Source of the DNA: Hyphomonadaceae bacterium ML37
Lineage (GTDB): Bacteria; Pseudomonadota; Alphaproteobacteria; Caulobacterales; Maricaulaceae
DNA length: 64,000 nucleotides
Direction: 5' to 3'
NCBI GenBank assembly: GCA_027627685.1
Contig: CP091241.1
Coordinates: 1,168,347 to 1,232,346 of the forward strand
Of this stretch, positions 2 through 23,739 are shown piece by piece. Both the position numbers and the translations under genes were made by a program. Below the pieces are notes generated by a model. The model was not told where the DNA came from. It searched no databases and was given only the letters and a program-made list of their open reading frames with translations. The stretch's first letter is position 1; each line of letters starts with the position of its first letter.

Positions 2-1024
2 TTTCTGGCGCCGCAGCTTCGCGAAGGGTTCGAAGCAGGACGCATCGCCTTCCTGCCGCTGACCTACACCAAGGCCTGGCGCTGGCTGGAGACCTGCGAT
101 GTGGATGCGGCGATCCTGCAGGTCTCGCCGCCCGATTCGATTGGCGAGTGCTCGCTTTCGCTGAGCTGTGATTTCACGCCGGCCATCTGGGCGCGCGCGC
201 CTGTGCGCGTGGCCCAGATCAACCCGGCTTTGCCCTCGATGCCCGGCGCGCCGTCCATTCCCTTGAGCGCCTTTGACGCCGTGTGCGAGGTGGAAAGCGA
301 ACCGCGCGGGTATGAGGCGGGCGATCTGCCGGAGGCGTTCTCACACATTGCGCGCCATGTCGCGGCGCTGGTGGAGGACCGCGCGGCTGTTCAGTTCGGC
401 CTGGGCAAGGTGCAGCTGGCGGTGCTGCCGGCGCTGAAAGACCATAAAGCGCTGACGATCCATTCGGGCATGGTGTCGGACCCGCTGCTCGAGCTGCTCG
501 ATGGTGATGCGGTGGCGGCCATCCGCACCGGCGCGGTGCTGGGCTCGCGCGCGCTGGCGGAACGGTTGAAGGATGAGCGGCGCCTGACCATGTGCCCCGT
601 GAGCGCCACCCATAGCGGCGGGGTGCTGGCGGGTCTGGCGCGCTTCACCGCCATCAACTCGGTGATCGAGGTGGATTTGTTCGGTCAGGCCAATGCCGAG
701 TTCGTCGGCGGGCGCCAGGTGTCCGGCGGCGGCGGATTGAGCGATTTCCTGCGCGGCGCCCAGGCCAGTCCCGGCGGCAAGGCGATTGTGGCGCTGGCCT
801 CCACGGCCAAAGGCGGGACGCTGTCGCGCATCGTTCCGCGCCTGACCGCGCCGGCGGTGAGCTTGAGCCGGGCCGATATCGACATCGTGGTCACAGAGCA
901 TGGCGCGGCCGATCTGCGCGGGCTCGGCCTGGATGCGCGCGCGGGCGCCCTGATACAGATCGCTCACCCTGATCACCGCGCTATGCTAGACAGCGCATGG
1001 CAAGACATTCGGAGGTCGCTATGA
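2..1024 (+). CDS. Acetyl-CoA hydrolase/transferase family protein (5' end outside window)
   Basis: The frame is open from base 2 of the window to the TGA at 1022-1024, so the N-terminal part of the protein lies off the left edge. The visible 340 residues match the acetyl-CoA hydrolase / 4-hydroxybutyrate CoA-transferase family. They show GECSLSLSCDFTPAI near the start, the glycine-rich SGGGGLSDFLRGA segment around 720-760, and the family signature TEHGAADLRGLGLDARAG close to the C-terminus. Such enzymes move CoA between short acyl groups and acetate in the cytoplasm. The stop overlaps the start of the downstream GntR regulator (ATGA), so the two genes are probably translationally coupled and the regulator may control this pathway. 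The exact acyl substrate cannot be read from the sequence. Confidence 0.85.
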   Translation, partial: FLAPQLREGFEAGRIAFLPLTYTKAWRWLETCDVDAAILQVSPPDSIGECSLSLSCDFTPAIWARAPVRVAQINPALPSMPGAPSIPLSAFDAVCEVESEPRGYEAGDLPEAFSHIARHVAALVEDRAAVQFGLGKVQLAVLPALKDHKALTIHSGMVSDPLLELLDGDAVAAIRTGAVLGSRALAERLKDERRLTMCPVSATHSGGVLAGLARFTAINSVIEVDLFGQANAEFVGGRQVSGGGGLSDFLRGAQASPGGKAIVALASTAKGGTLSRIVPRLTAPAVSLSRADIDIVVTEHGAADLRGLGLDARAGALIQIAHPDHRAMLDSAWQDIRRSL

Positions 1025-6646: not shown

Positions 6647-6647
6647 A

Positions 6648-6914: not shown

Positions 6915-6962
6915 AATTCGGCGCAGGGCGGCTTTATTGGCCTCAGTCTTCGACCCCGCCCA

Positions 6963-8715: not shown

Positions 8716-8823
8716 TAATTTGGTTCAATCTGGCCGCCTCACCGTGGCAGCAGCCTTCAACCTCGTGTCCCCCGTGACAATACAAGACATACAAGGGATA
8801 CTGAACGATGAGGGTACGGATAA

Positions 8824-9132
8824 TGCGCCATATCCACTGAGGTAGGAGAGCAAATTCCGGGGGACTGGGGCGGGGGTGAGCCCACTGAAGATGGAGGTTG
8901 GCGCTGGGCAAGACCGGGGGGCAATGGCGATGGAATTCGCTGGTCACCTGGGAACCCTGATTCGCCTCACCCGAACTCTCGCGGTCCAAATGTAAAAGTG
9001 ACGAGTGGCGGACGTCGTTTGACAGGTGACGGCACACCATCAGGAGCAGACAGGCCAAGTCACGATCCAGAGGCGCATATTCCAGAGGATGAATGGGTTG
9101 AGTGGGATGAATGGGATAGACCAGAGGGTTAA
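8824..9132 (+). pseudogene. Displaced Rhs tip fragment without core
   Basis: The frame is open from 8824 to the TAA at 9130-9132 and has no start codon. It reads like the last ~100 residues of a toxin tip (GDWGGGEPTEDGGWRWARP ... EDEWVEWDEWDRPEG), rich in Gly, Pro and Trp. It follows directly after the membrane immunity gene with no rhs core between, so it is a detached tip end left by recombination. No fold is recognised. Confidence 0.45.
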
Positions 9133-9478
9133 CCCCTATGCCAAGCTAGAGTTGATTCTCTCCCTGCGAGAGGTGTCGGAGGTGCACTTCAAAAACAGGT
9201 CGTTTGATCCAAGCAAAATGCGAATAACAATTTATGATTATTTGTTTGTAGATATTGAGCTAGGCATGCAAGGAGCTCAATGGGATTCAGCGAAGATATA
9301 CTTGGGTATCGATAATGAATCCGAAATATTGGCTAAAACAATAGGATCTCGACTGCTTTATTATTTTGATGGGGCGGACAAAAAGTCAATTGGAAAATTA
9401 GTTCTTGAGGCATCTCAAGATATTGATGTTTCTGAGTGCTGCGACAAACTATGGAAGCGATTGGTTGCCTGCACTTAA
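9107..9478 (+). CDS. Probable immunity protein (low GC)
   Basis: This protein of about 123 residues (MNGIDQRVNPYAKLELILSL ... DKLWKRLVACT) is encoded by A+T-rich DNA. It overlaps the end of the displaced tip fragment by 26 bases. ATGs at 9026 and 9089 are also in frame; 9107 is preferred because it gives the shortest overlap with the tip and follows GAGTGGG. It looks soluble, and position alone suggests immunity. Family unknown. Confidence 0.5.
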   Translation: MNGIDQRVNPYAKLELILSLREVSEVHFKNRSFDPSKMRITIYDYLFVDIELGMQGAQWDSAKIYLGIDNESEILAKTIGSRLLYYFDGADKKSIGKLVLEASQDIDVSECCDKLWKRLVACT

Positions 9479-9650
9479 ACTGACGAAGCCTCCAAATGAT
9501 TTCACGATGTGTGGTGCCACGCCTCCACAGCTACCAAACGGTCCGAACCCTCATCCCGTTTCAACCGGTGGAGCCACTTTGGGGAATGCTGTTTCGAATA
9601 CCGCTAGCAACCTAAGCCCAGTAATTGAGGAGCGGGAGAGAAGAAACTGA
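9477..9650 (+). pseudogene. Second displaced Rhs tip tail
   Basis: This short reading frame without its own start ends in a polar tail (TKPPNDFTMCGATPPQLPNG ... EERERRN) and a TGA that overlaps the ATG of the next small membrane protein (TGATG). The layout, a toxin tail fused end to start with an immunity gene, repeats what is seen at the other tips. It is too short to identify the toxin. Confidence 0.4.
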
Positions 9651-9847
9651 TGCGTATGGCGCTTACTATTTACTGGATCATATCTCCGTTATTTCTGACT
9701 ATATTGATGATGGGAATTGTCGAAATACTGGTCGCGTTGGAGCTTATTTTTTTACCAAGTGACATTAAATTTGCCATTGCAATAGCGCTCTTCATTGGGT
9801 GGTGTTATGCAGCCGCGATTATGTTGTTCAGACTTTACAAAAGATAA
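9650..9847 (+). CDS. Small two-helix membrane protein, probable immunity
   Basis: This 65-residue protein has two hydrophobic helices (about residues 4-28 and 38-58) and a basic C-terminus (LFRLYKR). Its ATG overlaps the stop of the preceding tip tail. The gene is A+T-rich like the other presumed immunity genes and sits just before another rhs core copy. The function is inferred only from context. Confidence 0.5.
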   Translation: MRMALTIYWIISPLFLTILMMGIVEILVALELIFLPSDIKFAIAIALFIGWCYAAAIMLFRLYKR

Positions 9848-9874
9848 CATAATATTCTGACTCGCGGCGGGGCG

Positions 9875-11158
9875 GTGTGGACCTATCTGTATGACAATGC
9901 CGACCGTCTGACGCGCGAGACCCTGGCCATAGACGGGCGCAGCTGCCAGACCGATTACGCCTTCAACCCCAATGGCGCGCTGGTTTTCCAGACCACGCCG
10001 GGCGGGCGCACGGTGAGCTATCAGCCTGACGGCCTCGGCCGGGCCACGCGGGCGTCGGACGCCCAGCGCATCTATGCCTCGAACGCGGCGTATCACCCCT
10101 CGGGCGGGCTGACGGCGCTGAGCTTCGGCAATGGCCACGCCTTTACGGCCACCTACAACGCGCGCCAGCTGATGACCGCCATGCAGGTCTCGGGCGGCGG
10201 CACGACGGCGATCAGCTTTGTCTATGGCCGCGACCCCAATGGACGCATCACATCGATCTCGGACCTGGCCGTGTCTGGCCAGTACCGCACGTTCGGCTAT
10301 GACGGGCTCGGACGGCTCGTCACCGCCACCGGCCCCTGGGGCTCGGGGTCCTACACCTATGACGCGCTCAATAACCTCACCACCCGCACGCTGGGCAGCC
10401 GCGTGGTGGAGATGGAGTACAACGCCGCCAACCGCCTGCACCGTCACCGCGACACGAGCGACGGCAATGTCTGGCGCAACTACGCCTATGACAGCCGCGG
10501 CAATGTGACGAATAACGGATCCATCAGCTTCACCTATGACCGCGCCGAGCGGCCGGTGTCCATCTCCGGCGCGGCGTCGGGCAGCTTCGTCTATGACGCC
10601 CACGGGCGACGGGTGAGGCAGGTGACGGGCGGGCAGACCATCTACTCGGTCTACTCGGCGGGCGGCACGCTCCTCTACCGCGACAACGCTGCCACCAGCA
10701 CGGCCACGGATTATATCCGGATGGGCGGGCGCGCCATCGCGCGGGTGCGCGGCAGCAACGTGGAATGGACCCACGCCGATCATCTGGGCAGCCCGGCGGC
10801 GGCCACCAGCGCCGCCGGCGCCGTGCTCTGGCGTGAAGACCACACCCCGTTCGGCGAGGCCCGCCAGGGCCCAACCCAGAACGTCGACAATGAAGGGTTT
10901 ACCGGCCACATCGCCGACGCCGCCACAGGCCTCGTCTACATGCAGGCGCGATACTACGACCCGGTGGTGGGGAGATTCTTGTCGAATGATCCGGTGGGGT
11001 TCGCAACGGGCGGACCGGCGTATTTTAACAGGTACGCGTATACGGCGAATGATCCGGTGAATTACTGGGATCCTGATGGCAGAAAGGTTTCACTCTCTGT
11101 ACAACGAGTTTCGGCAGATAGATTTCATTTAGCGGTGCATTTTGACCCAGCCCCGTGA
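9875..11158 (+). pseudogene. Second orphan rhs core, tip cut by IS3-family element
   Basis: From about 9864 the DNA repeats the main rhs gene (equivalent to about 4978-6186). It encodes 400 residues of YD repeats plus a complete core ending NDPVNYWDPDG. The new tip (RKVSLSVQRVSADRFHLAVHF) runs only about 20 residues before the left end of an insertion sequence at 11143, whose terminal repeat supplies the stop. There is no signal peptide; the apparent start is a GTG inside a YD repeat. It is a displaced cassette inactivated by the insertion. Confidence 0.75.
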
Positions 11159-11203
11159 ATTCCGGCCATTGAATGGTAGAGTCCATCGAGGAGAGGATGG
11201 ACC

Positions 11204-11470
11204 ATGCGAAAGAGCCGTTATTCGGAAGAGCAGATTATCGGCATGCTGCGCGAGCACGACGCCGGTGTGAGCACGAAGGAGGTCTGCCGCAAGTACGGCA
11301 TCTCCGACGCAACCTTTTACAAATACAAGGCCAAGTTCGGCGGGATGTCGGTGTCCGATGCCCAGCGTCTGAAGGTGCTGGAGCTGGAGAACAGCCGGCT
11401 GAAGCGGCTTCTGGCCGATGCCATGCTGGACAATGCAGCACTGAAGGACATCGCAGCAAAAAACTTCTGA
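11204..11470 (+). CDS. IS3-family transposase OrfA
   Basis: This 88-residue protein has an N-terminal helix-turn-helix ([15 protein letters not shown] ... [20 protein letters not shown]) and a C-terminal leucine-rich coiled region. It binds the element ends. The heptamer A-AAA-AAC at 11458-11464 lies five codons before the end, in the right phase for -1 ribosomal slippage into OrfB. Confidence 0.9.
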
Positions 11471-12381
11471 CGCCCGACGTTAAGCGCCAGGCCGTGCACC
11501 ACATGGTGACCCGGCACGGTCTGAGCGAACGTCGGGCCTGCGCCCTTGCAGAGCTGGACCGATCGACCTTCCAGTATCAGAAGCGCTCAAGCGACGATGA
11601 CGTCTTGCGCACGCGCCTGCGAGATATCGCCGGCGAGCGTCGCCGGTTCGGCTATCGCCGGCTGGGCATACTGCTCGAGCGCGAGGGCCTTTATGCGAAC
11701 CACAAGAAGATCTACCGGCTCTACCGAGAGGAAGGGCTGGCGGTCCGGCGGCGGCGTGGCCGCAAGCGGGCCGTGGGAACCCGGCGCCCGATCCTGTTGC
11801 CCGTGGCGGCGAACCATCGCTGGAGCCTGGACTTCGTCTCTGACGCGCTGTCAGACGGGCGGCGCTTCCGGACGCTATGCGTGGTCGACGACTTTACGCG
11901 GGAGGCCTTGGCCGTCGTGGTCGATACCTCGCTGTCTGGGATGCGCGTGGCCCGTGAGCTTGATCGTCTGATCGAGAAACGAGGAAAGCCGCGCATGATC
12001 GTTAGCGACAACGGCACCGAACTGACCAGTCACGCGCTTCTGCGCTGGCAGAAAGAGAGCGGCGTGGAATGGCACTATATCGCACCTGGAAAGCCTACCC
12101 AGAATGCCTTCGTGGAGAGCTTCAACGGTCGGTTCCGCGATGAGTGCCTGAACGAGCACCTGTTCTCGTCGCTACACGAAGCACGCGGCCTGATCGAGGC
12201 GTGGAGGATCGACTACAACACCCAGCGTCCGCACACCGCGCTTGGTGGGCTTGCGCCCTGTGTCTACGCCGAGCGAACCCGTCACCCCCGGCCCGGCTCG
12301 CTTGAGCTACGCGCAAGCTCCGCTCACCGGGCCTTGACCAACCACATCAACCCAGAAAGAAAGGCGAACAGACTCTACTAA
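11461..12381 (+). CDS. IS3-family transposase OrfB (DDE catalytic part, made by -1 frameshift)
   Basis: The frame has the HTH_21 region ([16 protein letters not shown]) and an rve integrase core. The DDE residues are visible in [20 protein letters not shown] and [15 protein letters not shown]. It is read as an OrfAB fusion after slippage at 11458-11464, because no start with a ribosome-binding site lies at its beginning. The frame is intact to the TAA at 12381, so the transposase may be functional. Confidence 0.88.
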
Positions 12382-12410
12382 CTCACGGCCCGGATCAGGG
12401 GGCTGGGTCA

Positions 12411-12701
12411 ACGCCAACCTCACCCAGGCCTCGCGCGGCGGGACGGTGTGGACCTATCTCTACGACAATGCCGACCGTCTGACGCGCGAGACCCTGGCCA
12501 TAGACGGGCGCAGCTATCAGACCGATTACGCCTTCAACCCCAACGGGGCGATGATCTCCCAGACCACGCCGGGCGGGCGCACGGTGAGCTATCAGCCCGA
12601 CGGGCTGGGCCGGGCGACGCGGGCGTCGGATGCGTGGCGCATCGATCTGCAATGCGTCGGATGTAGTCGGCAACAAGGTGGGCGAGCAAGCGCAGAAATA
12701 A
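12411..12701 (+). pseudogene. rhs YD-repeat fragment with a short foreign tail
   Basis: Immediately after the insertion sequence the DNA matches the main rhs gene from about 4957 to 5175 (NLTQASRGG, YDNADRLTRETLAIDGRSYQ). It then changes abruptly near 12635. A short tip end follows (ASDVVGNKVGEQAQK, stop TAA 12699-12701). It has neither start nor core and is a recombination remnant. Confidence 0.6.
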
Positions 12702-12752
12702 GGCGGCGCGAAAATCAAGAACCTTAACAATATCCAGAGCGATGAGGTCAAT

Positions 12753-13127
12753 GTGAAAGTCAGAGTGCCTATACCAAATGCGATCATTCTATTTTATGAT
12801 CCAGGTAATGAAAATTTCATGCTTGCCGAATGGAGTTCGACCAAATCTTATGAGGCAAATGACAGCTGCATATCTGTGGCCACTTTACCTGATATTGACG
12901 GCGAGACAACAATAGAAATATTGAATGCAAATAAGCCAATCAATAATCGAAATATGGTGCTGTCTTATGAGGGGCCAATGGAAACGCCAACTGGAAAAGT
13001 ATCTGTTAGCACCAGTCATTCCCTTGATATCATAGGTATGGATGTTTTGTCTAACTCCTGCCTGGTTCAGGTTTGGATAAATCGGCTTATGGATCCAGAT
13101 CATATTATTTTCGTGGTTCAGATTTAG
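12753..13127 (+). CDS. Probable immunity protein (GTG start, low GC)
   Basis: This 124-residue protein (MKVRVPIPNAIILFYDPGNE...) is encoded by markedly A+T-rich DNA between two rhs fragments. The GTG at 12753 is chosen because GAGGT sits four bases upstream. It looks soluble and beta-rich. Its place after a tip end and before the resumption of rhs sequence makes immunity the most likely role. No family is recognised. Confidence 0.55.
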   Translation: MKVRVPIPNAIILFYDPGNENFMLAEWSSTKSYEANDSCISVATLPDIDGETTIEILNANKPINNRNMVLSYEGPMETPTGKVSVSTSHSLDIIGMDVLSNSCLVQVWINRLMDPDHIIFVVQI

Positions 13128-13255
13128 CTTCCGCCAGCTGATGAGCGCCATGCAGGTGTCGGGCGGCGGGGTGATTGCGGTCAGCTTCGCCTATAACCAC
13201 GACGCGCGCGGGCGCATCATTTCGATCACCGATCTGGCGCCGCCCCCCCGCCGCT
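13128..13255 (+). pseudogene. rhs YD-repeat fragment
   Basis: This segment repeats the main rhs gene from about 5275 to 5386 (FRQLMSAMQVSGGG, YNHDARGRIISITDLA) and stops at a TGA after a C-rich run. Together with the fragment at 12411 it looks like one rhs copy split by insertion of an immunity gene. It marks the right end of the rhs locus. Confidence 0.6.
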
Positions 13256-13286
13256 GAGGGGGCGTTCTTGACTCCGTCCCGCTGAA

Positions 13287-13301
13287 GAACAAAAATAGAA
13301 C
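13287..13301 (+). promoter_or_regulatory. LexA (SOS) box
   Basis: GAAC-N7-GAAC (GAACAAAAATAGAAC) is a perfect match to the alphaproteobacterial LexA operator. It lies directly upstream of imuA, the expected site for damage-inducible control of imuA-imuB-dnaE2. The last base of the box touches an ATG at 13302. Confidence 0.85.
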
Positions 13302-13349
13302 ATGACAGACGCCCGGCGGCTGGCCGGGCCTGGCGGCAGAGTGCAGGAC

Positions 13350-14183
13350 ATGAGCAGGGATTGTCACGACGGCGCGCCGCAGGCGGGCGCCGCACAGATG
13401 GATTGCGTCGCGCGGCCCGAGCGTCTGACGGCGCTGCGCGCGCGCATCGCGGCGCTGGAGACGGCGGGCGGGCGCAGCGTGGCGGCGCGGGCGCGCCTGT
13501 CGCCGCGCGCGGCTGTGCCTTCCGGCGAGGATGATGCTCTGGCGGCGTTCCGGGCGCGTGCAGGCCTGCATGACATCCGCCCTGACAGCTATTTCGACGC
13601 GCCGGCGGCCTATGCCTTCGCCGTGCGCTGGCTGGCCGGCCTGCCCGATGACCGGCTGGTGGTCTGGGTGCGCGGGGCGGGCGATCCGCGCCTTGATTTC
13701 GGGGCGCCGTGCCCGGACGGGCTGGCGGCGTGCGGGCTGGACCCTGCGCGGCTTTTGCTGGTGCGCGCACGCGCCGGGGCGGACGCGCTGTGGGCGATGG
13801 AGGAGGCGCTCAATGCCGGCGCGCTGGTCTTCGGCGAGGCGGGCGCCCAGCGCGCCTATGACCTTACCGCCTCGCGCCGGTTGCAGGCGCGCGCGGCGGC
13901 GGCGGGCAGCTGCGTGCTGGCGCTGGCCTCTCACGATGCATCGGGGACGAGCGCGGGGCTGACGCGCTGGCGCATCGCGGCTGCGCCGGGCCCGGCTGCG
14001 CCGTGGCGCGGTGCAGGGGGGCTGGCGGGGCTCGGCGCCCTGCGCGTGCGCGCGGTGCTGGAACGTCAGCGCGGCGGCCCGCCGGGCCGGTTTGATCTGG
14101 AATGGAGCGATCATGCGCTATGCAGCCCTGAGCCTGCCGGACTGGCCGGTGGAGCGCGCCCGCCGCGCCGGGCCGCCGGATAA
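13350..14183 (+). CDS. imuA: ImuA, SOS mutasome accessory protein (RecA-like)
   Basis: This protein of about 277 residues has the ImuA layout. An N-terminal helix (LTALRARIAALE) precedes a degenerate RecA-like fold, with FGEAGAQRAYDLTASRRLQ in the later half. ImuA works with ImuB and DnaE2 in translesion synthesis after DNA damage. The start is ambiguous. The ATG at 13302 abuts the SOS box and would leave no leader, so 13350 (preceded by CAGGA) or even 13398 is more likely if transcription begins just after the box. The 3' end overlaps imuB by 71 bases, indicating co-translation. Regulation is by LexA. Confidence 0.85.
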   Translation: MSRDCHDGAPQAGAAQMDCVARPERLTALRARIAALETAGGRSVAARARLSPRAAVPSGEDDALAAFRARAGLHDIRPDSYFDAPAAYAFAVRWLAGLPDDRLVVWVRGAGDPRLDFGAPCPDGLAACGLDPARLLLVRARAGADALWAMEEALNAGALVFGEAGAQRAYDLTASRRLQARAAAAGSCVLALASHDASGTSAGLTRWRIAAAPGPAAPWRGAGGLAGLGALRVRAVLERQRGGPPGRFDLEWSDHALCSPEPAGLAGGARPPRRAAG

Positions 14184-15642
14184 TAACCGGCCCTTCGCCC
14201 TCATCGCGCCGGGCGCGGGCGGCGAGCGTCTCTATGCCGTGTGTCCGGCGGCGGCGCGCGCCGGGCTGGCGATGTCCATGCGCGTGGCGGATGCGCGCGC
14301 GCTGGCGCCTGAGCTGCGCGTCAGCGCCGCCGATCCTGACGGCGACCGGGCGGCGCTGAGTGACCTGGCGCGCTGGTGCGGGCGGGTCTCGCCCTGGACG
14401 GCGCCCGATCCGGGCGCGGCGGCGCCTCTGTCGGGCGTGCTGATGGACGTTACCGGCTGCGCGCGCGTGTTCGGCGGGGAGGACCGGCTGCTGGACGGGC
14501 TTATTCGCGATGTGCGCGCGCTGGGCTTCACCGCCCGCGCCGCCGCCGCGCCGACGCTGGGCCTGGCCTGGGCTTTGGCGCGCCATGGCGAGACGGGGCG
14601 GCGCGGCTGGTGTGCGGCCGACGACGCCCATACCGCCCTGGCGCCCCTGCCGGTGGAGGCGCTGCGCCTGACGCCGGAGACATGCGCGGCGCTGCGCCGG
14701 TTCGGGCTGAGCACGGCGGGCGCCCTGATGGGTCTGCCGCGCCGGGCGCTGGTGCGGCGCTTCGGACCGGATCTGGCGCGGCGGCTCGATCAGGCGCTGG
14801 GCGGGGTGCGCGAGACGCTCTCGCCGCTGCGCCCCGCGCCGTCCCTGCGCGCGCGGGTGCGCTTTACCGAGCCGCTGATCACGCTCGACAGCGTGGGCGA
14901 GGCGTTCGCCCATGCCCTGACGCGCCTGTGCGTCCTGCTGGAGCGCGAGGGTCTGGGCGCCCGGCGCGTGCGCCTGACCCTGTACCGGGCCGATGGCGGG
15001 GTGGGGGAGATGATGCTGGCCGCCGCCGCGCCGGTGCGCGACAGCGCCCATCTGATCCGCCTGATGCGTCACCGGCTGGAGCGCGCCGGCCTCGACGCCG
15101 GGTTCGGCGTGGATCTGGTGGAGGCCGCCGCCCTGCTGACCCGTCCGCTGGACGCCGGCCAGACCAGCTTCGATCCCGATGCGGGCGCGGAGCGTGTGGC
15201 GGCGGCGCGGCTGGTGGACCGGCTGGACGCCCGGCTGGGCGCCGGGGCGGCGGCGTGTGCGCAAGTCGTCGACAGCCATGCGCCCGAGCGCGCCGGTCAA
15301 TGGCGGTCCGGCGCGGCGGCGCCCGCGAGCTGGCCGCGCCGCCCCGAGCGCCGCCCGCTGCTGATCCTGGATCCGCCCGAGCGCGCCGAGGCGGTGGCGG
15401 AAATCCCCGACGGGCCGCCGCGCCGCTTCACCTGGCGCCGGGTCGCCCATACGGTGGCGCGCGCTGAAGGGCCCGAGCGCATTGCGCCCGAATGGTGGCG
15501 GCTCACCCCCGGCGTGGCGGCGCGCACGCGCGATTATTTCCGCGTCGAGACCGGGGAGGGGCGCCGGTTCTGGCTGTACCGCGAGGGCCTGTATGGCCGC
15601 GAGACGCGCCAGCCGGGCTGGTTCGTCCATGGGGCGGGGTAA
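14113..15642 (+). CDS. imuB: ImuB, Y-family polymerase-like mutasome hub
   Basis: This 509-residue protein starts MRYAALSLPDWPVERARR, the standard ImuB N-terminus. It has a Y-family (DinB-like) core with helix-hairpin-helix features (LRRFGLSTAGALMGLPRRAL) and a long C-terminal tail ending LYGRETRQPGWFVHG. ImuB lacks polymerase activity in characterised relatives and bridges the beta clamp, ImuA and DnaE2. It overlaps imuA at its start. Its TAA overlaps the dnaE2 ATG (TAATG), so the three genes form one tightly coupled SOS operon. Confidence 0.92.
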   Translation: MRYAALSLPDWPVERARRAGPPDNNRPFALIAPGAGGERLYAVCPAAARAGLAMSMRVADARALAPELRVSAADPDGDRAALSDLARWCGRVSPWTAPDPGAAAPLSGVLMDVTGCARVFGGEDRLLDGLIRDVRALGFTARAAAAPTLGLAWALARHGETGRRGWCAADDAHTALAPLPVEALRLTPETCAALRRFGLSTAGALMGLPRRALVRRFGPDLARRLDQALGGVRETLSPLRPAPSLRARVRFTEPLITLDSVGEAFAHALTRLCVLLEREGLGARRVRLTLYRADGGVGEMMLAAAAPVRDSAHLIRLMRHRLERAGLDAGFGVDLVEAAALLTRPLDAGQTSFDPDAGAERVAAARLVDRLDARLGAGAAACAQVVDSHAPERAGQWRSGAAAPASWPRRPERRPLLILDPPERAEAVAEIPDGPPRRFTWRRVAHTVARAEGPERIAPEWWRLTPGVAARTRDYFRVETGEGRRFWLYREGLYGRETRQPGWFVHGAG

Positions 15643-18600
15643 TGGGGCCCCGCTTCGCCGAGCTGTGCGCGGCCAGCCATTTCTCCTTCCTGCGCGGGGC
15701 GAGCCATCCCCACGAAATGGTGGAAGCCGCGGCCGCGCTGGGGCTGGAGGCGGTGGCGGTGGCCGACCGCAACACGCTGGCGGGCGCCGTGCGCGCCTTT
15801 CTGGCCGGGCGCGAGCAGGGCGTGCGCGTGCTCACCGGCGCGCGTCTGGTGGCTGAAACAGGGGTGGAGCTGGCGTGCATTCCGCGCACCCGCGCCGCCT
15901 ATGGCCGGCTGTGCCGGGCTTTGTCGGACGCCCATGAGACCGGCGAACCCGGCGCGCCGCACATTGATCTGCCCGCCATGGCGCAGGCGCTGGGCGATGA
16001 GCAGATCCTGATCCTCATGCCCCCGCCCGAGGCGGATGAGGACTGGCGCGCCCAGGCGGAAACCGTTCTGGCGCGCGCGGTCTCGCCGGTGCATCTGGCG
16101 CTGGTGCGCCGCTTTGATGGCCGCGACGGGGCGCGCCTGCATGGTCTCGCGGCGCTGGCCCGGGCCTGGGGCGTACAGACCCTCGCCAGCAGCGATGCGC
16201 TCTACCACGCGCCCGAACGCCGGGCGCTGCAGGACGTGCTCACCTGCATTCGCGAGCATGTGCGCATCGATGCGGCGGGCCGGCGCCTGGAAGCCAATGC
16301 CGAACGCCATCTCAAAGACGCCGCCGAGATGGCGCGCCTGTTCGCCGATTATCCCGAGGCTGTGACGCGCACGGCGCAGCTGGCGCGCACGGTGACCTTC
16401 TCCCTCGACCAGCTGGTCTACGCCTATCCTGACGAGACGATCGGGGCGGGCGAGACGCCCATGGAGACGCTGCGCCGGCTGACACGCGAGGGCGCGGCGC
16501 GGCGCTGGCCCGGCGGGATTCCAGAGGCGGTGCAGAAGGCGCTCGAGCATGAGCTGGAGCTGATCGCATCGCTCGATTACGCCAGCTATTTCCTCACCGT
16601 GGAGGATCTGGTGCGGTTCGCCCGCTCGAGGGGCATTCTGTGTCAGGGGCGCGGCTCGGCGGCCAATTCGGCTGTGTGCTACGCCATCGGCGTGACCGAG
16701 GTGGATCCGGCGCGGATTGATCTTCTGTTCGAGCGTTTCATCTCGGCCGAGCGGGGCGAGCCGCCCGATATCGATGTGGATTTCGAGCATGAGCGCCGCG
16801 AGGAGGTGATCCAGTACGTCTATGAGAAATATGGCCGCCGGCGCGCGGCCATGACGGCGGTGGTCCATTGCTACCGCCCGCGCGGCGCGCTGCGTGAGGC
16901 GGGCAAGGTGTTCGGCCTGTCGGGCGATGTGATCACGGCTCTGTCCAAGGCGGTGTGGGGCTGGCGCGATCCGGTGTCGCCGCAGACGATCCGCGATGAG
17001 CTGGGCCTGGACCCCGATGCGCCGGCCCTGCGCCGCACGCTGGCGGCGGCCCGCGCCCTGCAGGGCTTTCCCCGTCACCTGTCCCAGCATCCCGGCGGGT
17101 TCGTGATGACGCTGGACCGGCTGGACGAGATGGTTCCGGTGCGCAAGGCCGCCATGCCCGAGCGCACGGCGATCGAATGGGACAAGGAGGATATCGACGC
17201 GCTGGGCCTGATGAAGGTGGATGTGCTGGGGCTGGGCATGCTGAGCTGTGTGTCGCGCGCGCTGGCCATGATCGCAGACGCCTATGGCCGGCCCATGCAG
17301 GTGCAGGACATCCCGGCCGAGGACCCGGTGGTCTACGACATGATCTGCAAGGCCGACACGGTGGGGGTTTTCCAGATCGAAAGCCGGGCGCAGATGAGCA
17401 TGCTGCCGCGCCTGAAGCCGCGCTGTTTCTATGATCTGGTGATCGAGGTGGCCATCGTGCGCCCCGGTCCGATCCAGGGCGATATGGTCCATCCCTATCT
17501 GCGCCGGCGCGAGGGGCGCGAGGCGGTGAACTACCCCTCCGAGGCGCTGCGCGCGGTGCTGGGCAAGACGCTGGGCGTGCCCCTGTTCCAGGAGCAGGCG
17601 ATGAAGATCGCCATTGTGGCGGCGGGGTTCACGCCGTCGGAAGCCGACCGGCTGCGCCGCTCCATGGCCGCGTTCCGCCGGGCCGGAACGATTCAGGAGA
17701 TGGGCGAGAAGCTGGTCGCGGGCATGATCGCCAACGGCTATGAGCCGGACTTCGCCGAGCGCTGTTTCCGCCAGCTGGAGGGCTTTGGCGAGTATGGCTT
17801 TCCCGAAAGCCATGCGGCGAGCTTTGCGCTGATCGTCTATGTCTCGTGCTGGCTCAAGCGCCATTACCCGGACGTGTTCCTGGCCGCCATGCTGAACGCC
17901 CAGCCGCTGGGCTTCTACGCCCCGGCCCAGCTGGTGCGCGATGCGCGCCAGCATGGGGTGATGGTGCGCGCGCCCGACGTGAACGCCTCGCACTGGGACA
18001 GCACGCTGGAGACGCTGGCATCGGGGGAGGGGCCGCGCGCGACCCCTGAGGGCGGCGCCCGGCGGGCGGTGCGCCTGGGTCTGCGCCAGATCAAGGGCCT
18101 GGCCGAAAGCGCAGCCGCGCGCCTGATCGCGGCGCGGGAACGTGGCGTATTTGTCAGCATCGAGGACGCCGCCCGGCGCGCCGGGCTGGGGCGCGGGGTG
18201 CTGGATGTGCTGGCGCGCGCTGACGCCTTCGCCTCGCTGGGCGAGACACGCCGGGCGGCGGGCTGGCGCGCGCGGGCGGTGGCCGGTCCCGACCTGCCGC
18301 TCTTCGCGGCTGCGGGGGGCGAGGGGGCGGTGGCCGACTATTCCGGCGCCGCCCTGCCGATGCTCAAAGCATCTGAAGACGTGGTGCAGGATTATGCGAG
18401 CCTGTCCTTGTCGCTCAAAGGCCATCCCATGGCCTTCCTGCGCGGGCATTTTCACCGGCTGGGCTATCAGCCCTGCGCCGAACTCTCGCGCCTGCGTCCC
18501 GGCGCGCGCACCGGGGTGGCCGGTCTGGTGCTGGTGCGTCAGCGCCCCGGCTCGGCCAAGGGGGTGATCTTCGCCACGCTTGAGGACGAGACCGGGACGG

Positions 18601-18911
18601 CCAATGTGATCATCTGGCCGTACGTGTTTGCGCGTTTCCGCCGGGCGGTGATCGGGGCGAAGCTCCTGGGCGTGACCGGCGTGCTGCAGCGCGAGGGCGA
18701 TGTGATCCATCTGGTCGCCGCCCAGGCGCGCGACTGGAGCGAGGCGCTGGACGCGCTGACGCAAGGCGATGAGGCGGGCGGATTCCAGAGCGCACTGGCC
18801 CGCGCCGACGAGGTGGCCCGTCCCGGCGCTGATGCCCGCGAGCGCCCCAAGCGCAAATTCGCCGCATCTGAAGCGGAGAGCATCATCCCCGCCAGCCGGG
18901 ATTTCCGGTGA
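15642..18911 (+). CDS. dnaE2: DnaE2, error-prone DNA polymerase III alpha subunit
   Basis: The protein has 1089 residues, the usual DnaE2 length. It has an N-terminal PHP domain (FAELCAASHFSFLRGASHP), the C-family polymerase palm with the catalytic aspartates in PDIDVDF (D376, D378), and fingers and helix-hairpin-helix regions. A C-terminal OB fold follows (GVIFATLEDETGTANVIIWP). It performs translesion synthesis with ImuA/ImuB and is the main source of damage-induced mutation in this group. The ATG at 15642 overlaps the imuB stop. It is the last gene of the operon. Confidence 0.95.
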   Translation: MGPRFAELCAASHFSFLRGASHPHEMVEAAAALGLEAVAVADRNTLAGAVRAFLAGREQGVRVLTGARLVAETGVELACIPRTRAAYGRLCRALSDAHETGEPGAPHIDLPAMAQALGDEQILILMPPPEADEDWRAQAETVLARAVSPVHLALVRRFDGRDGARLHGLAALARAWGVQTLASSDALYHAPERRALQDVLTCIREHVRIDAAGRRLEANAERHLKDAAEMARLFADYPEAVTRTAQLARTVTFSLDQLVYAYPDETIGAGETPMETLRRLTREGAARRWPGGIPEAVQKALEHELELIASLDYASYFLTVEDLVRFARSRGILCQGRGSAANSAVCYAIGVTEVDPARIDLLFERFISAERGEPPDIDVDFEHERREEVIQYVYEKYGRRRAAMTAVVHCYRPRGALREAGKVFGLSGDVITALSKAVWGWRDPVSPQTIRDELGLDPDAPALRRTLAAARALQGFPRHLSQHPGGFVMTLDRLDEMVPVRKAAMPERTAIEWDKEDIDALGLMKVDVLGLGMLSCVSRALAMIADAYGRPMQVQDIPAEDPVVYDMICKADTVGVFQIESRAQMSMLPRLKPRCFYDLVIEVAIVRPGPIQGDMVHPYLRRREGREAVNYPSEALRAVLGKTLGVPLFQEQAMKIAIVAAGFTPSEADRLRRSMAAFRRAGTIQEMGEKLVAGMIANGYEPDFAERCFRQLEGFGEYGFPESHAASFALIVYVSCWLKRHYPDVFLAAMLNAQPLGFYAPAQLVRDARQHGVMVRAPDVNASHWDSTLETLASGEGPRATPEGGARRAVRLGLRQIKGLAESAAARLIAARERGVFVSIEDAARRAGLGRGVLDVLARADAFASLGETRRAAGWRARAVAGPDLPLFAAAGGEGAVADYSGAALPMLKASEDVVQDYASLSLSLKGHPMAFLRGHFHRLGYQPCAELSRLRPGARTGVAGLVLVRQRPGSAKGVIFATLEDETGTANVIIWPYVFARFRRAVIGAKLLGVTGVLQREGDVIHLVAAQARDWSEALDALTQGDEAGGFQSALARADEVARPGADARERPKRKFAASEAESIIPASRDFR

Positions 18912-18956
18912 CGCTCAGCGATCAGGCGAGGTTTTCACTTGATCCTCCGCCCGTTT

Positions 18957-18976
18957 CGAAATGATATACCATTTCG
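18957..18976. promoter_or_regulatory. Palindromic operator upstream of the DUF1838 gene
   Basis: CGAAATGATATACCATTTCG is an almost perfect 20-bp palindrome (18 of 20 positions symmetric), 41 bases before the DUF1838 start. A closely related sequence lies upstream of the TonB receptor gene at 20011. The core TGGTATATCA resembles operators of GntR-type regulators. The regulator itself is not next to it. Confidence 0.6.
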
Positions 18977-19016
18977 AGGGCCGGACCTCACCGGCTCCGT
19001 GCGGAGGAGACATATC

Positions 19017-19904
19017 ATGAGAACCCTGATTGCTGCGCTGGGCCTGAGCGCCGTCACGGCGGCTGCGGCCTGCGCCCAGGAGCGCCTCAGCTTCGACAAT
19101 CCCGACGACGTCATCACCATGAACCGCAAGATCGGCTGCTCCACGGTGGATGGCGAGCCGATCACGTTCTACTGGCACGGCTACGCGTTCTCGCGCCGGG
19201 CCGGTGAGCCGGACCGCCGCCTGTTCCGCGTTGAGGGCATGAATGTGCGCGCCTGCGTGACGGTGGAGCATCCCGAGCACGGCGCCGGCTACCGGCTCGT
19301 GTCGCGCGAGCTTCTGCTCTATCTCGATCCGGACACGAACGAGATCCTGTCCACCTGGGACAATCCCTGGACCGGAGAGACGGTGGACGTGCTGCACGTG
19401 GCCAATGATCCGGTCAATTCGCGCGGCAGCTTCCCTAACGGACCCAATGGCCCGGCCCAGTGGCGCGGATCGTCCATGGGCAATGATTTCTGGCAGACCA
19501 CCACCGTGCCGCTCTTCTATTCCAACCCGCTCGCCAGCGAGTTCCAGGCCGAGATTGGCGGGACCTATCACGCCACCGAGATGTTCAATTTCTTCGGCCG
19601 CGTCGATGACATCACCGACCCGGAAACGACCACCGCCGATGTGGAGGTGGGCTGGGTGCGCATGTCCGACTGGCTGCCCTGGATGGAAATGCGCGGACGC
19701 GACGGGCTGATCTATTTCCACACCGCCGGCACCAAGCTGGACAGCTGGGACGAGCTGCCGGAATTCTTCCGGGACGAAATCGCCCGCCACTATCCTGAAT
19801 ATACCGAGCCGCCTGCGCTCGATGACGACCGGCCCAATGTGACAAGCTGGACTTACTATCGCGACATCGCCGCGGGTGTGGTTACAGCGCCGGAGCGCAA
19901 CTGA
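19017..19904 (+). CDS. DUF1838 family secreted protein
   Basis: This 295-residue protein has a Sec signal peptide (MRTLIAALGLSAVTAAAACA, cleavage near ACA-Q) and one DUF1838 domain over most of its length. Segments include NRKIGCSTVDGEPITFYWHG, TWDNPWTGE and PEYTEPPALDDDRPNVTSW. GGAGGA seven bases upstream fixes the start, where an upstream in-frame ATG at 18939 has none. The biochemical role of DUF1838 is unknown. It shares a palindromic operator with the TonB receptor that follows, and a CpcT/CpeT-like secreted protein comes after that, suggesting one uptake or processing pathway. Confidence 0.85.
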   Translation: MRTLIAALGLSAVTAAAACAQERLSFDNPDDVITMNRKIGCSTVDGEPITFYWHGYAFSRRAGEPDRRLFRVEGMNVRACVTVEHPEHGAGYRLVSRELLLYLDPDTNEILSTWDNPWTGETVDVLHVANDPVNSRGSFPNGPNGPAQWRGSSMGNDFWQTTTVPLFYSNPLASEFQAEIGGTYHATEMFNFFGRVDDITDPETTTADVEVGWVRMSDWLPWMEMRGRDGLIYFHTAGTKLDSWDELPEFFRDEIARHYPEYTEPPALDDDRPNVTSWTYYRDIAAGVVTAPERN

Positions 19905-20010
19905 TCCCGCCTCGACCCGGCCGCCTTAAGCGCGGCCGGGTTTGTCACTGAAATGCAACACTGGCCCGCATTTGTTCGGACAAGCGCAACATGACAGCGG
20001 TCTGACAGAA

Positions 20011-20030
20011 TGAAATGGTATATCAATTGA
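20011..20030. promoter_or_regulatory. Second copy of the DUF1838/TonB operator
   Basis: The sequence at 20011-20030 agrees at 16 of 20 positions with the reverse complement of the palindrome at 18957, including the 14-base core GAAATGGTATATCA. It is 86 bases before the TonB receptor start, so the same regulator probably controls both transcripts. Confidence 0.55.
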
Positions 20031-20115: not shown

Positions 20116-22578
20116 GTGAAAAAGCACATCCTGTTGACTACGGCCGCCGCGATCGCCGCGACCAGCCTGGCGGCCATACCCGCCGCCTCAGCCCAGGAAG
20201 AGGGCGCCCAGCCGCAAGCGCGCGACGTCATCACCGTGACGGCGCGTCTGCGTGAGGAAACCATTCTGGATGCACCGGTCGCGGTCACCGCGTTCGGCCA
20301 GGAGGATATTCTCGATCTCGGCCTGCAGTCGGTGGACGATGTGGCGCGCTTCACGCCCGGCCTGTCCTTCTCGGCCGCCTTCGGGCGCACGTCGGAGCGC
20401 CCGGTGATCCGCGGCCAGGCCAACGTGCTCGCCGGCGTCCAGTTCGGCGTGGAATCAGGCACCGCCTACTTCATCGACGGCGTCTATTATCCCGGCTCGA
20501 TCCAGAATCTTGACACCAATGATCTGGCCCGGGTCGAGGTGATCCGCGGTCCGCAAAGCGCGCTATACGGACGCAACACCTATGCGGGCGCGATCAACTT
20601 CATCACGCGCGGCGCCACGGACGAGTTTGAGGGCCAGCTGCGCGCTCGCGGCGGCACTTACGGCGAGCACGAGGTGTCGGCCGGCATCTCCGGCCCCATG
20701 GGCGACCGCGCCGGATTCCGCCTGTCGATGCGCGACTACAATTACGACGGCGAGTGGACCAATCAGGTCACCGGCGACACAGTAGGCTCCCAGTCCACGA
20801 CATCGTTCTCCGCCGTGGTGGACCTCAATCCGACCGACCATTTCGACTTCCGCCTGCGCGCCCAGTACTCGGAATCGCGCGACGGCACGCTGCCGCTCTT
20901 CCTGCAGCCGGCCGCCAGCAATAACTGCTCGCCGGGTTACCGCTCGCTGAATTACTGGTCCCGCTCGGGAAGCACGAACAACAACCAGTATTTCTGCGGC
21001 GTGATCCAGCCCGGCCAGGTCGCGCTGAACACCGGTCCCGCCCTTCCGGGCCAGCCGGCCATCGTGCCGGGCGTGCCGGCCAACGCGCTCAATCCCTTCC
21101 TGCCGTTCCAGCTCTACTCGACGGCGGACGGCACGGCCTTTGACGGCATCAGCAACAATACCATTCTGATGTCCGGCATCATGAACTGGGACATGGGCGG
21201 CTCGGGCTATGTCCTGACCGTGTCCGGCGCCTATCGTGATGAGGAACGCCGCTTCGGTTCGGACTCCGACCACAGCTCCATCAACTTTGTCCTTCAGCCG
21301 GTGGGCATGGCTGACACGGGCGCGTTCTTCGCCAACACCACCCGCAATCTGGTCGAAGACTATTCGTTCGAGGCGCGCCTGGCGTCGCCGGTGAACGAGC
21401 GTCTGCGCTGGATGGTCGGCGCGTATTACTATGACCAGGTCAATGACGGGTTCTCGATCACCTTCTCCAATCCGTCGGGCAATGCGTCCAACCAGCTGAC
21501 CACCACCAACACGGCGTTCTTCGGCCTGATCGAATACGACGTCACCGACAATCTGACGGTCACGTTTGAAGGCCGGCACGCCGAGGAAGAAAAGACCACG
21601 CTGGACGGGATCAGCACGGCGACCCCGTTCAACCGGTCCGACACCTTCTCCAACTTCACCCCGCGCCTGACGCTGAACTGGTCGGTCAATCCCGAAACCA
21701 CCCTGTTCGCCATCTATGCGCGCGGTGTGAAGCCGGGCGGCCAGAACGGCCAGATCGGCGAGACCACCGGCAACCCGATCTATGATCAGGAAACGTCGGA
21801 GAATTTTGAAGTCGGCGTGAAGCAATCTCTGTTCGGCGGGGCCGGATACTTTGCCGCATCGGCCTACTTCATCGAGGCGACCGACGTGCAGCTGACCACG
21901 GCGGTGTCGAACCCGGCCGGCGCAATCAACTCGGTGGCCACCAACCAGGGCGCGGCGGAGATCCTCGGCCTTGAGTTGGAATACCGCCAGCAGCTCACCG
22001 ACATGCTGTCTGTGGGCGCGACCTATGCCTGGACCCAGCCGGAGTTCACCGAAGGGTGCGACGATGCGCAGTGGGAGCTGACCTCGGGCGGCGGCGTGAT
22101 CGCGGGCAATGCGACGGCGCCGGGCACGGGGACGCAGTTCTTCGGCCAGACCGGCAATTGCTCCATCGCGGGCAACCGCATTCCGCTGACCTCCGAACAC
22201 CAGTTGTCGGTGAATGGCGAACTGCGCGCGCCCTTCGGCCAGAACGGCCGCCTGGAATGGTTCGCACGCGGCGACTACACTTATGAGTCGTCGAAATACG
22301 TGCAGGTTCACAATCTGGCCGAAACGGGGTCAGCCTCGATCCTCGGCGCCCAGATCGGGATCGAGAGCGATACCTGGACGATCATGGCCTATGGCCGCAA
22401 CATGCTGGACGAAGACTCCATCGTGATGGCGACCCGCTGGCTGCAGACCCCCTATCTCAGCGCCGGCTTCTCGCCCAACACCGCGCCGGCCGACGCCGCC
22501 CGCGGTGCGCCGCGCGCCTTCTTCGGCACGCTGCGCCGCGGCGCCGCCTATGGCGTGGAAGCCCGCTACCGCTTCTAG
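20116..22578 (+). CDS. TonB-dependent outer-membrane receptor
   Basis: This 820-residue protein starts at a GTG with AGGGGAG upstream. It has a signal peptide (MKKHILLTTAAAIAATSLAA..., cleavage near ASA-Q) and a probable TonB-box region (DVITVTARLREE). A plug domain covers about residues 45-165 (VARFTPGLSFS, YFIDGVYYPG, RVEVIRGPQSALYGRNTYAG). The 22-strand barrel ends in the typical aromatic RYRF. It imports an unknown substrate using proton motive force through TonB. Family relatives in sphingomonads and hyphomonads take up oligosaccharides, aromatics or steroids; nothing here settles the ligand. The neighbours are the DUF1838 and CpcT/CpeT-like genes. Confidence 0.93.
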   Translation: MKKHILLTTAAAIAATSLAAIPAASAQEEGAQPQARDVITVTARLREETILDAPVAVTAFGQEDILDLGLQSVDDVARFTPGLSFSAAFGRTSERPVIRGQANVLAGVQFGVESGTAYFIDGVYYPGSIQNLDTNDLARVEVIRGPQSALYGRNTYAGAINFITRGATDEFEGQLRARGGTYGEHEVSAGISGPMGDRAGFRLSMRDYNYDGEWTNQVTGDTVGSQSTTSFSAVVDLNPTDHFDFRLRAQYSESRDGTLPLFLQPAASNNCSPGYRSLNYWSRSGSTNNNQYFCGVIQPGQVALNTGPALPGQPAIVPGVPANALNPFLPFQLYSTADGTAFDGISNNTILMSGIMNWDMGGSGYVLTVSGAYRDEERRFGSDSDHSSINFVLQPVGMADTGAFFANTTRNLVEDYSFEARLASPVNERLRWMVGAYYYDQVNDGFSITFSNPSGNASNQLTTTNTAFFGLIEYDVTDNLTVTFEGRHAEEEKTTLDGISTATPFNRSDTFSNFTPRLTLNWSVNPETTLFAIYARGVKPGGQNGQIGETTGNPIYDQETSENFEVGVKQSLFGGAGYFAASAYFIEATDVQLTTAVSNPAGAINSVATNQGAAEILGLELEYRQQLTDMLSVGATYAWTQPEFTEGCDDAQWELTSGGGVIAGNATAPGTGTQFFGQTGNCSIAGNRIPLTSEHQLSVNGELRAPFGQNGRLEWFARGDYTYESSKYVQVHNLAETGSASILGAQIGIESDTWTIMAYGRNMLDEDSIVMATRWLQTPYLSAGFSPNTAPADAARGAPRAFFGTLRRGAAYGVEARYRF

Positions 22579-22668: not shown

Positions 22669-23739
22669 ATGAAGGTGAAGACCATCTGTGAGAGCGTGCG
22701 GGCCTCCGCCGCAAGCCTGGTGACCGCGCTGGCGCTATGCGCCGGGTTCGCTGCGCCCGGCGCGGCGCAGTCCACATCCGATCCAGTCATGGCGCGCGAT
22801 CTGGCGGACTTCCTGAGCTGGTTCGAAGGGCGTTTCGACAATGACCGCCAGGTGTTCTTCGCAGACGCGCTGGGCGTGCCCGAGGACGCCCGCCATGAGC
22901 GCATCCATTCGGTGTTCCGGCGCGTGGACCTTCCCGCGTTCGGTGAGCACGTCTTCTATGTCGAGCAATATTCAGGCGCGGACGCAGGCGTTATCTACCG
23001 CCAGCGCATCTATGTGTTCACGCCCGCGCCGGAGACCGGTGAAATCCGCCTGGACATCCATGCGCCGCGTGCGGCGGAACGCCTCGCCGGCGCGCATCTG
23101 GATGCGGATTTGCTAGCGGGACTGACGCCGGCGGATGCGACGGCCTTTCCGCAATGCGCCGTCTATTGGCGCCGTCAGGAGAACCAGTTCGTGGGCCAAA
23201 CCCGCCGCGGCGAATGCCGGGTGGTCAGCCAGCGCAGCGGCCAGACGCTGATCATCGAGGATGATCTGGTGCTGACGCCCGGCGCCATCTGGATCCGCGA
23301 CCGGGCCGAAACCGAGGACGGGACCTTTGTCTATGGCAATCGCGCCGGCATCGCCCATCAGCTGCGCCGGGCGCGCCCCTTTTTGTGCTGGACCGCGGTG
23401 CTGCGCGGGGTGAGCCATGGAGAGAGCGGGGAGGGCGTTCCGCCTTCGCAATGGGATTTCCGCCGCGATGTCTTCATCCATGATCAGGGCGGGCGCGCTG
23501 TGATCGAGACCGACGAGACGCCGCCGCGCCGGGTGGAGCTCCGCCTGCGCGATGTGGACTGGCCGGATGGCGCGCGGCGCGGCTCGCTGACGCTCTATGT
23601 CCATGAGGCGGGCGATGACCGCGCCGTATCCTACGCCTGGGGCGAGGCGGGGGCGGAGCGGATCGGGATCAATTTGCGCTGGATGCAGGCCAGTTGCACT
23701 CATGCGCCCGGCGTGTGGGGCCCCGGTCAGGCCCGGTAG
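22669..23739 (+). CDS. CpcT/CpeT-type secreted protein
   Basis: This 356-residue protein has a signal peptide ([34 protein letters not shown]). It is followed by a CpcT/CpeT (DUF1001) domain: [60 protein letters not shown]. The cyanobacterial members are bilin lyases; members in non-photosynthetic proteobacteria are secreted and uncharacterised. The start at 22669 has GGAG upstream. It lies 90 bases after the TonB receptor and probably belongs to the same transcript. The 3' end overlaps the convergent aroC gene by 13 bases. Confidence 0.8.

Follow-up and report, generated by a model that had tools for sequence, protein, structure and literature searches.

The closest described relatives of the regulators considered here belong to the HutC subfamily, which joins an N-terminal winged helix-turn-helix domain of GntR type (PF00392) to a C-terminal UTRA domain (PF07702). 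Two proteins of Hyphomonadaceae bacterium ML37, which we call GntR-a and GntR-b, have the same two domains: they score 65.3 and 69.1 bits for PF00392 (cut-off 27) and 107.9 and 78.4 bits for PF07702 (cut-off 23.8). The nearest solved structures are those of NagR/YvoA and DasR, which match GntR-a over its whole length (E = 4.6e-24 for YvoA, 4u0v). However, GntR-a falls below the cut-offs of the HutC and PhnF equivalogs, and we rejected the HutC equivalog (TIGR02018) for both proteins (113.4 bits for GntR-a and 107.0 bits for GntR-b, against a cut-off of 220). To our knowledge, the operator described below (TGRTATAYCA) and its regulon differ from those of HutC, PhnF, NagR, and DasR.

Three described metabolic systems also resemble parts of this regulon. 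First, 2,3-dimethylmaleate hydratase (DmdAB) and 2,3-dimethylmalate lyase carry out a step of anaerobic nicotinate breakdown. The regulon has a small hydratase subunit of the LeuD/DmdB family, a LeuC-type large subunit, and a related lyase, but no nicotinate hydroxylase was found among its annotated members, and here genes for imidase-like and half-amidase-like proteins precede. Second, in Aspergillus nicotinate catabolism, HxnM and HxnN provide a cyclic imidase of the PuuE/polysaccharide-deacetylase type and then an amide hydrolase (PMC9304392); the regulon shares this order, but its later enzymes suggest substituted maleates, and no other part of the hxn set was recognized here. Third, the CpeT/CpcT and CpeS/CpcS bilin lyases of cyanobacteria and cryptophytes are similar to regulon proteins, CpeT by sequence (PF06206) and the f43 family by fold (Z = 13.6 to CpeS, 4tq2). 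However, the regulon's proteins are mostly predicted to be exported and are found in heterotrophs, beside catabolic genes, and BFA1, DUF3598, and nitrobindins give matches to f43 that are as good as or better than that of CpeS. The regulatory system is thus of a known kind, a GntR/UTRA operator regulon. We found no description of the pathway, the cluster, or the regulon in the PMC literature that we searched, which leaves most subscription journals outside its scope.

The window, that is, the whole 64-kb stretch that was analyzed, corresponds to G000:C1:1168347-1232346 of a single 3.04-Mb contig (G000 is the genome of ML37 itself). A first-pass annotation of the window had reported a 20-bp palindrome shared by the upstream regions of a DUF1838 gene and a TonB receptor gene, and both gene identities are borne out (Table 1). 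A pattern search of the window places CGAAATGATATACCATTTCG upstream of the DUF1838 gene. This 20-mer differs from its own reverse complement at 2 positions, with 9 of its 10 base pairs symmetric, and nothing within 3 mismatches of it arose in 100 dinucleotide shuffles of the window. A shorter form, GAAATGGTATATCA, is found exactly at 18962-18975 on the minus strand and before the receptor gene on the plus strand, and no shuffle reached the window's three matches to it at up to 2 mismatches. The shared palindrome is thus present at both places and exceeds chance. The receptor's copy had also been described as lying in inverse orientation, which carries no meaning because the element is nearly palindromic. 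We call it P1 (consensus AAAWGRTATAYCWTTT; 16-bp core AAATGRTATAYCATTT).

Table 1. Features of the window and P1 sites of the ML37 genome. Gene and motif positions are those of the window unless a contig is given; P1 sites listed by a single number are positions on the contig.
Feature	Position	Strand	Basis or neighborhood
CoA-transferase gene before GntR-b, 5' end outside the window	2..1024	+	PF13336, E = 3e-46
GntR-b, GntR+UTRA regulator; candidate for P2, alternative for P1	1030..1767	+	PF00392 and PF07702, over cut-off
CTTGATC with -35-like hexamer TTGATC (putative promoter element)	18938..18944	+	invariant in an alignment of 9 congeneric genomes
Putative P1 operator upstream of DUF1838	18957..18976; 16-bp core 18959-18974		core AAATGATATACCATTT; pattern searches, island kept in 9/9 DUF1838-bearing congeners
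DUF1838 gene, exported protein	19017..19904	+	PF08894, E = 1.3e-72
P2 palindrome, a further putative operator, in the promoter region of the TonB gene	19972..19983		TTGTTCGGACAA; same position in G006, G009, G012
Putative P1 operator upstream of TonB receptor	20013..20028		AAATGGTATATCAATT; GAAATGGTATATCA of the first-pass annotation at 20012-20025
TonB-dependent receptor, regulon member	20116..22578	+	57% identical to the G053-cluster receptor, whose gene is likewise preceded by P1
CpeT/CpcT-family exported protein after the receptor	22669..23739	+	PF06206, E = 6.6e-30, 104.8 bits
GntR-a, GntR+UTRA regulator	G000:C1:2573296-2574117		PF00392, PF07702; 1.39 Mb from the window's sites
P1 site	661986		between HapK-SDR-deacetylase-CpeT-VOC operon and methyltransferase operon
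P1 site, degenerate	1040178		VOC gene
P1 site	1065970		between acyl-CoA dehydrogenase gene and LeuC-LeuD-PrpB-like operon
P1 site	1187305		before DUF1838
P1 site	1188359		before TonB receptor
P1 site	1308557		between TRAP transporter operon and amine oxidase gene
P1 site	2157036		between DUF1838b-nitrilase-CpeT-isochorismatase-deacetylase-deacetylase-nitrilase run and DUF1330
P1 site	2283809		before DUF2269-like gene
P1 site, weak but conserved	2574153		between GntR-a and DUF2269-like gene

In the nine aligned genomes, CTTGATC stands 18-19 bp before the P1 site of DUF1838. With TTGATC as the -35 hexamer and a spacing of 17-18 bp, the -10 region (TGATAT/GATATA) would fall within P1, and this arrangement suggests a repressor that acts by occlusion. 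A generic scan for sigma-70 promoters and terminators gave no match. Upstream of the receptor gene, a TTGTCAC...AAATGCAACAC-like box at 19942-19961 is nearly invariant in the nine congeners and is unrelated to P1 or to the second palindrome, P2, described below.

The first-pass annotation had suggested scanning the genome with the palindrome. When we did so with AAATGGTATATCATTT, allowing up to 3 mismatches, there were 11 forward and 11 reverse matches, as compared to none on either strand for a reversed control pattern. A more symmetric P1 pattern added the site at 1065970. We judged the remaining matches (such as 352663, 702919, 1239983, 1952921, 2079338, 2900279, and 2948023) to be due to chance, given their mismatches and their neighbors. 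It is very probable that the P1 palindromes are regulator-binding sites at about nine loci of this genome. The two sites in the window do belong to one regulon, as had been proposed. P1 recurs before catabolic genes at about seven further places in the genome. This regulon is not the small one of two genes that was envisaged: its loci encode transporters, enzymes resembling imidases, amidases, hydratases, and lyases, and calycin-type proteins. We also considered whether the palindromes could arise by chance or be a general AT-rich -10 element, given that their TATA core looks like a -10 box and that P1 probably overlaps one. The shuffles and the reversed control without any match, the dyad symmetry that is kept to the outer arms, the concentration of P1 on one functional gene set, and its absence from congeners that lack the pathway make this explanation scarcely credible.

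P1 is also conserved in relatives, which matters because its absence upstream of orthologues had been named at the outset as the result that would count against the motif. DUF1838 is present in 17 of the 61 genomes searched. In all nine of the congeneric genomes that have it, P1 is found upstream of both DUF1838 and the TonB receptor, and in the alignment it forms an island of identity amid divergent sequence. The copy at the receptor is within 2 mismatches of the consensus in eight of the nine; the copy in G006 has 3. Among the eight more distant genomes with DUF1838, P1 lies nearby or in the same intergenic region in four (G048, G052, G053, and G057); in the other four (G015, G021, G039, and G047), the search upstream of DUF1838 did not find it. 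In G047 and G039 (loci L127 and L132), the P2-like TGTCCGGACA takes its place. In uncultured Kordiimonas/Kordiimonadaceae, TGTTATATCA, which by its sequence appears to be a P1-like variant outside the strict consensus, lies about 50 bp upstream of DUF1838 (L168, 18797; L173, 18195; L177, 18759; L180, 18756). A de novo search for palindromes in the Sphingomonadales loci that lack P1 found none that recur.

Three other genera (G053, G028, and G057) have catabolic clusters of roughly 35-55 kb with the same genes, with P1 at many promoters, and with GntR-a; in the cluster of G057, as in the window, the CpeT gene follows a receptor gene. Part of the cluster of G028 is repeated near the other end of the contig (L078, which is G028:C1:5000-24000, and L075-L077), with GntR-a in three broken pieces; this is either a duplication or assembly redundancy. 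More broadly, we searched for the isochorismatase-family protein and kept 80 of 156 loci. In these, P1 is within 200 bp of 9 of 11 TonB23 genes, 9 of 12 DUF1838b genes, and 14 of 21 DUF1330 genes, versus just 7 of 485 unclassed genes; genes whose upstream sequence was shorter than 60 bp are not in these counts, which use gene calls from a simple codon-usage caller, so some starts are uncertain. The upstream-site scan left minus-strand loci unturned, so the signs of its offsets have to be read with the strand.

Which protein reads P1? The genome of ML37 encodes only three GntR proteins: GntR-a, GntR-b, and one that adjoins a pair of imidazolonepropionase- and urocanase-like genes, in what we read from the sequences as a hut-like operon. 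Regulators of the FadR/FCD type were considered and rejected: GntR-a and GntR-b have UTRA effector domains, and the third gene is in the hut-like operon. Across 15 congeneric genomes, GntR-a is present in all nine that have P1 and in none of the six that do not. If the genomes were independent, such co-occurrence would have a chance of 1 in 5005, but they are related, and any other protein that is lost with the pathway would have a similar profile. DUF1838 is found in the same nine genomes, and the isochorismatase-family protein is in eight of them and in none of the other six. Outside the genus, P1 flanks GntR-a on both sides in G053 and lies beside it in G048, G052, and G057. A P1-like site (at most 2 mismatches, at most 300 bp upstream) precedes 10 of 46 GntR-a-like genes, one genome being entered twice among the 46 (as L167 and G057); the 10 include Kordiimonadaceae (L216 and L217) and Microbulbifer (L223, L231, and L236). 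The other 36 have no P1 by these thresholds, the site near GntR-a is weak within the genus (3 mismatches), and G027, G039, G047, and G055 have a relative of GntR-a (54-56%) and no clear P1 regulon. Because of the profile within the genus and the sites beside GntR-a in G053, G048, G052, G057, and the 10 distant genes, we prefer GntR-a, and we put the probability that P1 is the GntR-a operator of a catabolic regulon at roughly three in four.

The main competitor from the same family is GntR-b. It is directly before P1 and DUF1838 in G009 and G006, and it is inside the large clusters of G028, G053, and G057. However, it is found in 12 of the 15 congeners, including three without P1 (G007, G008, and G014), so its profile fits P1 worse than that of GntR-a does; also, in most of the genomes with the pathway, its promoter region contains P2 rather than P1, and the P2 sites of the clusters flank its neighborhood. 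That P1 is the operator of GntR-b therefore seems improbable, even if the assignment of P2 to GntR-b is imperfect in its turn: G011 has GntR-b without P2 at that place, and the P1-less G007, G008, and G014 have 0-3 matches to P2.

A regulator of another family is less probable still, with GntR-a as a mere passenger of the pathway. The shape of an operator does not prove the family of its regulator, a TetR gene lies about 0.8 kb from the P1 site at 2283809, and in some distant loci an IclR-family gene (f44) replaces or joins the GntR gene. But GntR-a is the only regulator family found across the examined alpha- and gammaproteobacterial clusters and the compact modules described below, and P1 adjoins several of its genes. 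A GntR-type regulator, as the first-pass annotation guessed from operator shape, is our best candidate. The accompanying statement that the regulator is not adjacent is correct for GntR-a, and must be qualified for GntR-b, which is in the window and which in G006 and G009 directly adjoins P1 and DUF1838. Separately, a palindrome, TGGTATATCA, lies between GntR-a-like and IclR-like genes (L182, L187, and L191, near 13530-13562), an arrangement that possibly reflects an exchange of regulators.

The first-pass annotation did not mention P2 (consensus TTGTCCGGACAA), which lies 41 bp upstream of the receptor's P1 site. At up to 1 mismatch, TTGTYCGRACAA is found at 24 places in the genome, versus 9 for the control; P2 is short, so single sites are uncertain, and some are inside predicted genes whose calls are unreliable. 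The places include the TonB promoter, the promoter of DUF1838b and DUF1330 (where P1 is 42 bp away), the gap between f43 and an enoyl-CoA hydratase gene, the CitE-MaoC-ACAD-CaiB operon (2176929), a second TonB gene, and the promoter of the CoA-transferase and GntR-b genes, just outside the window (G000:C1:1168032). This last, divergent promoter has TTTGTCCGGACATA in seven of the nine congeners with the pathway (G000, G001, G005, G006, G009, G012, and G013); of the other two, G010 has a like palindrome at -57, and G011 also lacks TTTGTCCGGACATA. In the clusters of G053, G028, and G057, the good matches to P2 are only before CitE and before the PrpD gene next to GntR-b. Within the genus, genomes with the pathway have 6-20 matches (1 mismatch) and the others have 0-4, as compared to 1-8 for the control.

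GntR-b is likely the regulator that reads P2. This assignment is less certain than that of GntR-a to P1, because G007, G008, and G014 keep GntR-b with hardly any P2. In G006 and G009, the order is GntR-b, P1, DUF1838, P2, P1, TonB; between GntR-b and DUF1838, G012 has imuA-imuB-dnaE2-like genes, and the window has these and an Rhs-like and IS3-like stretch (1768-18911). The P2 operon has two CoA-transferase genes, and in the gap between them are two small genes that, as we read their sequences, resemble a toxin-antitoxin-type pair (L275, G000:C1:2172456-2173028).

The regulon's enzymes can be placed in a pathway, with roles that reflect family resemblance and with several scores far below equivalog cut-offs. 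The isochorismatase-family protein is 83-89% identical between the clusters of G053, G028, and G057 and ML37, and the loci found with it come from Maricaulales, Hyphomonadales, Sphingomonadales, Kordiimonadales, Microbulbifer, Marinobacter, Halomonas, and others. Their recurring core is the isochorismatase-like gene with two polysaccharide-deacetylase-like genes; a GntR gene and LeuCD, CaiB, HMGL-like, or PEP-mutase/ICL-like genes often accompany it. In Marinobacter, Halomonas, Terasakiella, and a Methylocystaceae MAG, the core forms a compact module together with a TRAP transporter. It is also found on plasmids such as pJE1, where one of two LeuCD sets goes with CaiB/HMGL and the other with a gene of the ICL/PEP-mutase family.

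By family scores, the deacetylase-like protein is related to PuuE, and enzymes of the PuuE/polysaccharide-deacetylase family act as cyclic imidases (PMC9304392). The half-amidase-like enzyme (PF00857) is similar to the N-carbamoylsarcosine amidohydrolase 26st (E = 2e-28) and to the isochorismatase-family hydrolase 4l07 (E = 3e-26). We take 4l07 to be a maleamate amidase. The small hydratase subunit scores 159 bits for TIGR02087 (LeuD/DmdB; cut-off 109), and the large subunit exceeds the cut-off of TIGR01343. The lyase is related to 2,3-dimethylmalate lyase (3fa3, E = 2.3e-47) and is closer to methylisocitrate lyases. Further members resemble mesaconyl-CoA hydratase (MaoC), CitE, HMGL, CoA-transferase III, PrpD, and amidases. 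On balance, we lean towards a pathway in which a cyclic imide gives a half-amide, then a substituted maleate and a substituted malate, and in the end pyruvate with a short acid.

Some other proteins of the regulon may have calycin folds. CpeT-family proteins are at three loci by Pfam (PF06206, cut-off 21; 61.6 bits at L013 and 76.5 bits at L081, besides the window's gene) and at a fourth by BLAST clustering, where Pfam gives no match. The predicted model of f43, another regulon member (pLDDT 91.5), matches BFA1 (Foldseek E = 5e-7) and 3bdr (7e-5), with VIA Z scores of 13-17, and we are confident from this model that f43 has the calycin fold, a single up-and-down beta barrel. For DUF1838, the AF2 model (pLDDT 83.6) has middling VIA Z scores of 7.9 to CpeS (4tq2) and 7.1-7.8 to nitrobindins, but porins and omptins score equally (7-8), the calycins compared were from a chosen list, so others may match, and Foldseek found no match at E ≤ 0.001; we do not claim that DUF1838 is a calycin. 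A profile search with DUF1838 and f43 against PDB sequences gave no match at E ≤ 0.1.

The calycin-type proteins together with the imide/maleate route make a tetrapyrrole a reasonable but unproven candidate for the substrate. The P1/P2 regulon would then mineralize bilins or breakdown products of chlorophyll or haem: exported calycins and TonB receptors would trap the pigment or pieces of it, oxidative enzymes would cleave it to monopyrrolic cyclic imides, imidases and the half-amidase would convert these to dialkylmaleates, and two hydratase-plus-lyase routes would give pyruvate and short acids, with the two GntR/UTRA regulators running the upper and lower halves from partly shared promoters. 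Candidate imides are haematinic acid and those of the methyl-ethyl- or methyl-vinyl-maleimide type; haematinic acid and maleimides are listed among chlorophyll breakdown products (PMC7318184). We offer this scheme tentatively and consider it rather unlikely as a whole: calycins bind many ligands, and among the annotated members we recognized neither a haem oxygenase nor any other enzyme known to open the ring.

There is a substantial chance, if short of even odds, that the regulon degrades some other nitrogen compound, such as a pyridine, a pyrimidine, a hydantoin, or a succinimide-type imide, and that the calycins bind an unrelated hydrophobic ligand. PuuE is an allantoinase, the half-amidase has N-carbamoylsarcosine amidases among its near relatives, in addition to isochorismatase-family amidases, calycin barrels accommodate many ligands, and the compact modules of Marinobacter, Halomonas, and plasmids are without CpeT or DUF1838. 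However, the two hydratase-plus-lyase routes (LeuCD with CaiB and HMGL, and LeuCD with PEP-mutase/ICL) suit substituted maleates better than unsubstituted diacids, and we recognized no enzyme among the annotated members that would hydroxylate a pyridine or pyrimidine ring.

The sites, their conservation, their genomic targets, and their co-occurrence with GntR-a are direct observations; binding, repression, effector, enzyme activities, and substrate are inferred. In the scheme that we propose, P1 would be the operator of an effector-responsive repressor of GntR/UTRA type, most likely GntR-a. In the absence of inducer, transcription would be blocked by a GntR-a dimer occupying P1, both over the -10 region that precedes DUF1838 and within the promoter of the TonB receptor gene, until binding of a pathway metabolite to the UTRA domain freed the dimer from the DNA. 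The genes so induced would provide uptake through TonB outer-membrane and TRAP systems, exported proteins of calycin type (CpeT, and DUF1838 may be another), VOC and oxidative enzymes, cyclic imidases similar to PuuE, an isochorismatase-family enzyme that resembles maleamate amidase, and, for the end steps, a LeuCD/DmdAB-like hydratase and an enzyme like PrpB or 2,3-dimethylmalate lyase. P2, probably read by GntR-b, would mark a CoA-dependent lower pathway (CitE-MaoC-ACAD-CaiB and PrpD-PrpD-PaaK-like-amidase) and would overlap P1 at the TonB and DUF1838b promoters.

Overall, two palindromes in the window lead to a testable regulon: its operator is named, there are candidates for its regulators, and its targets lie at about nine loci. 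They tie DUF1838, CpeT-like proteins, and several other uncharacterized families to one widespread catabolic system. Plants and algae release very large amounts of breakdown products of chlorophyll and bilins. If the substrate is a tetrapyrrole, this regulon would be the first genetic handle on how bacteria use the carbon and nitrogen of these products.
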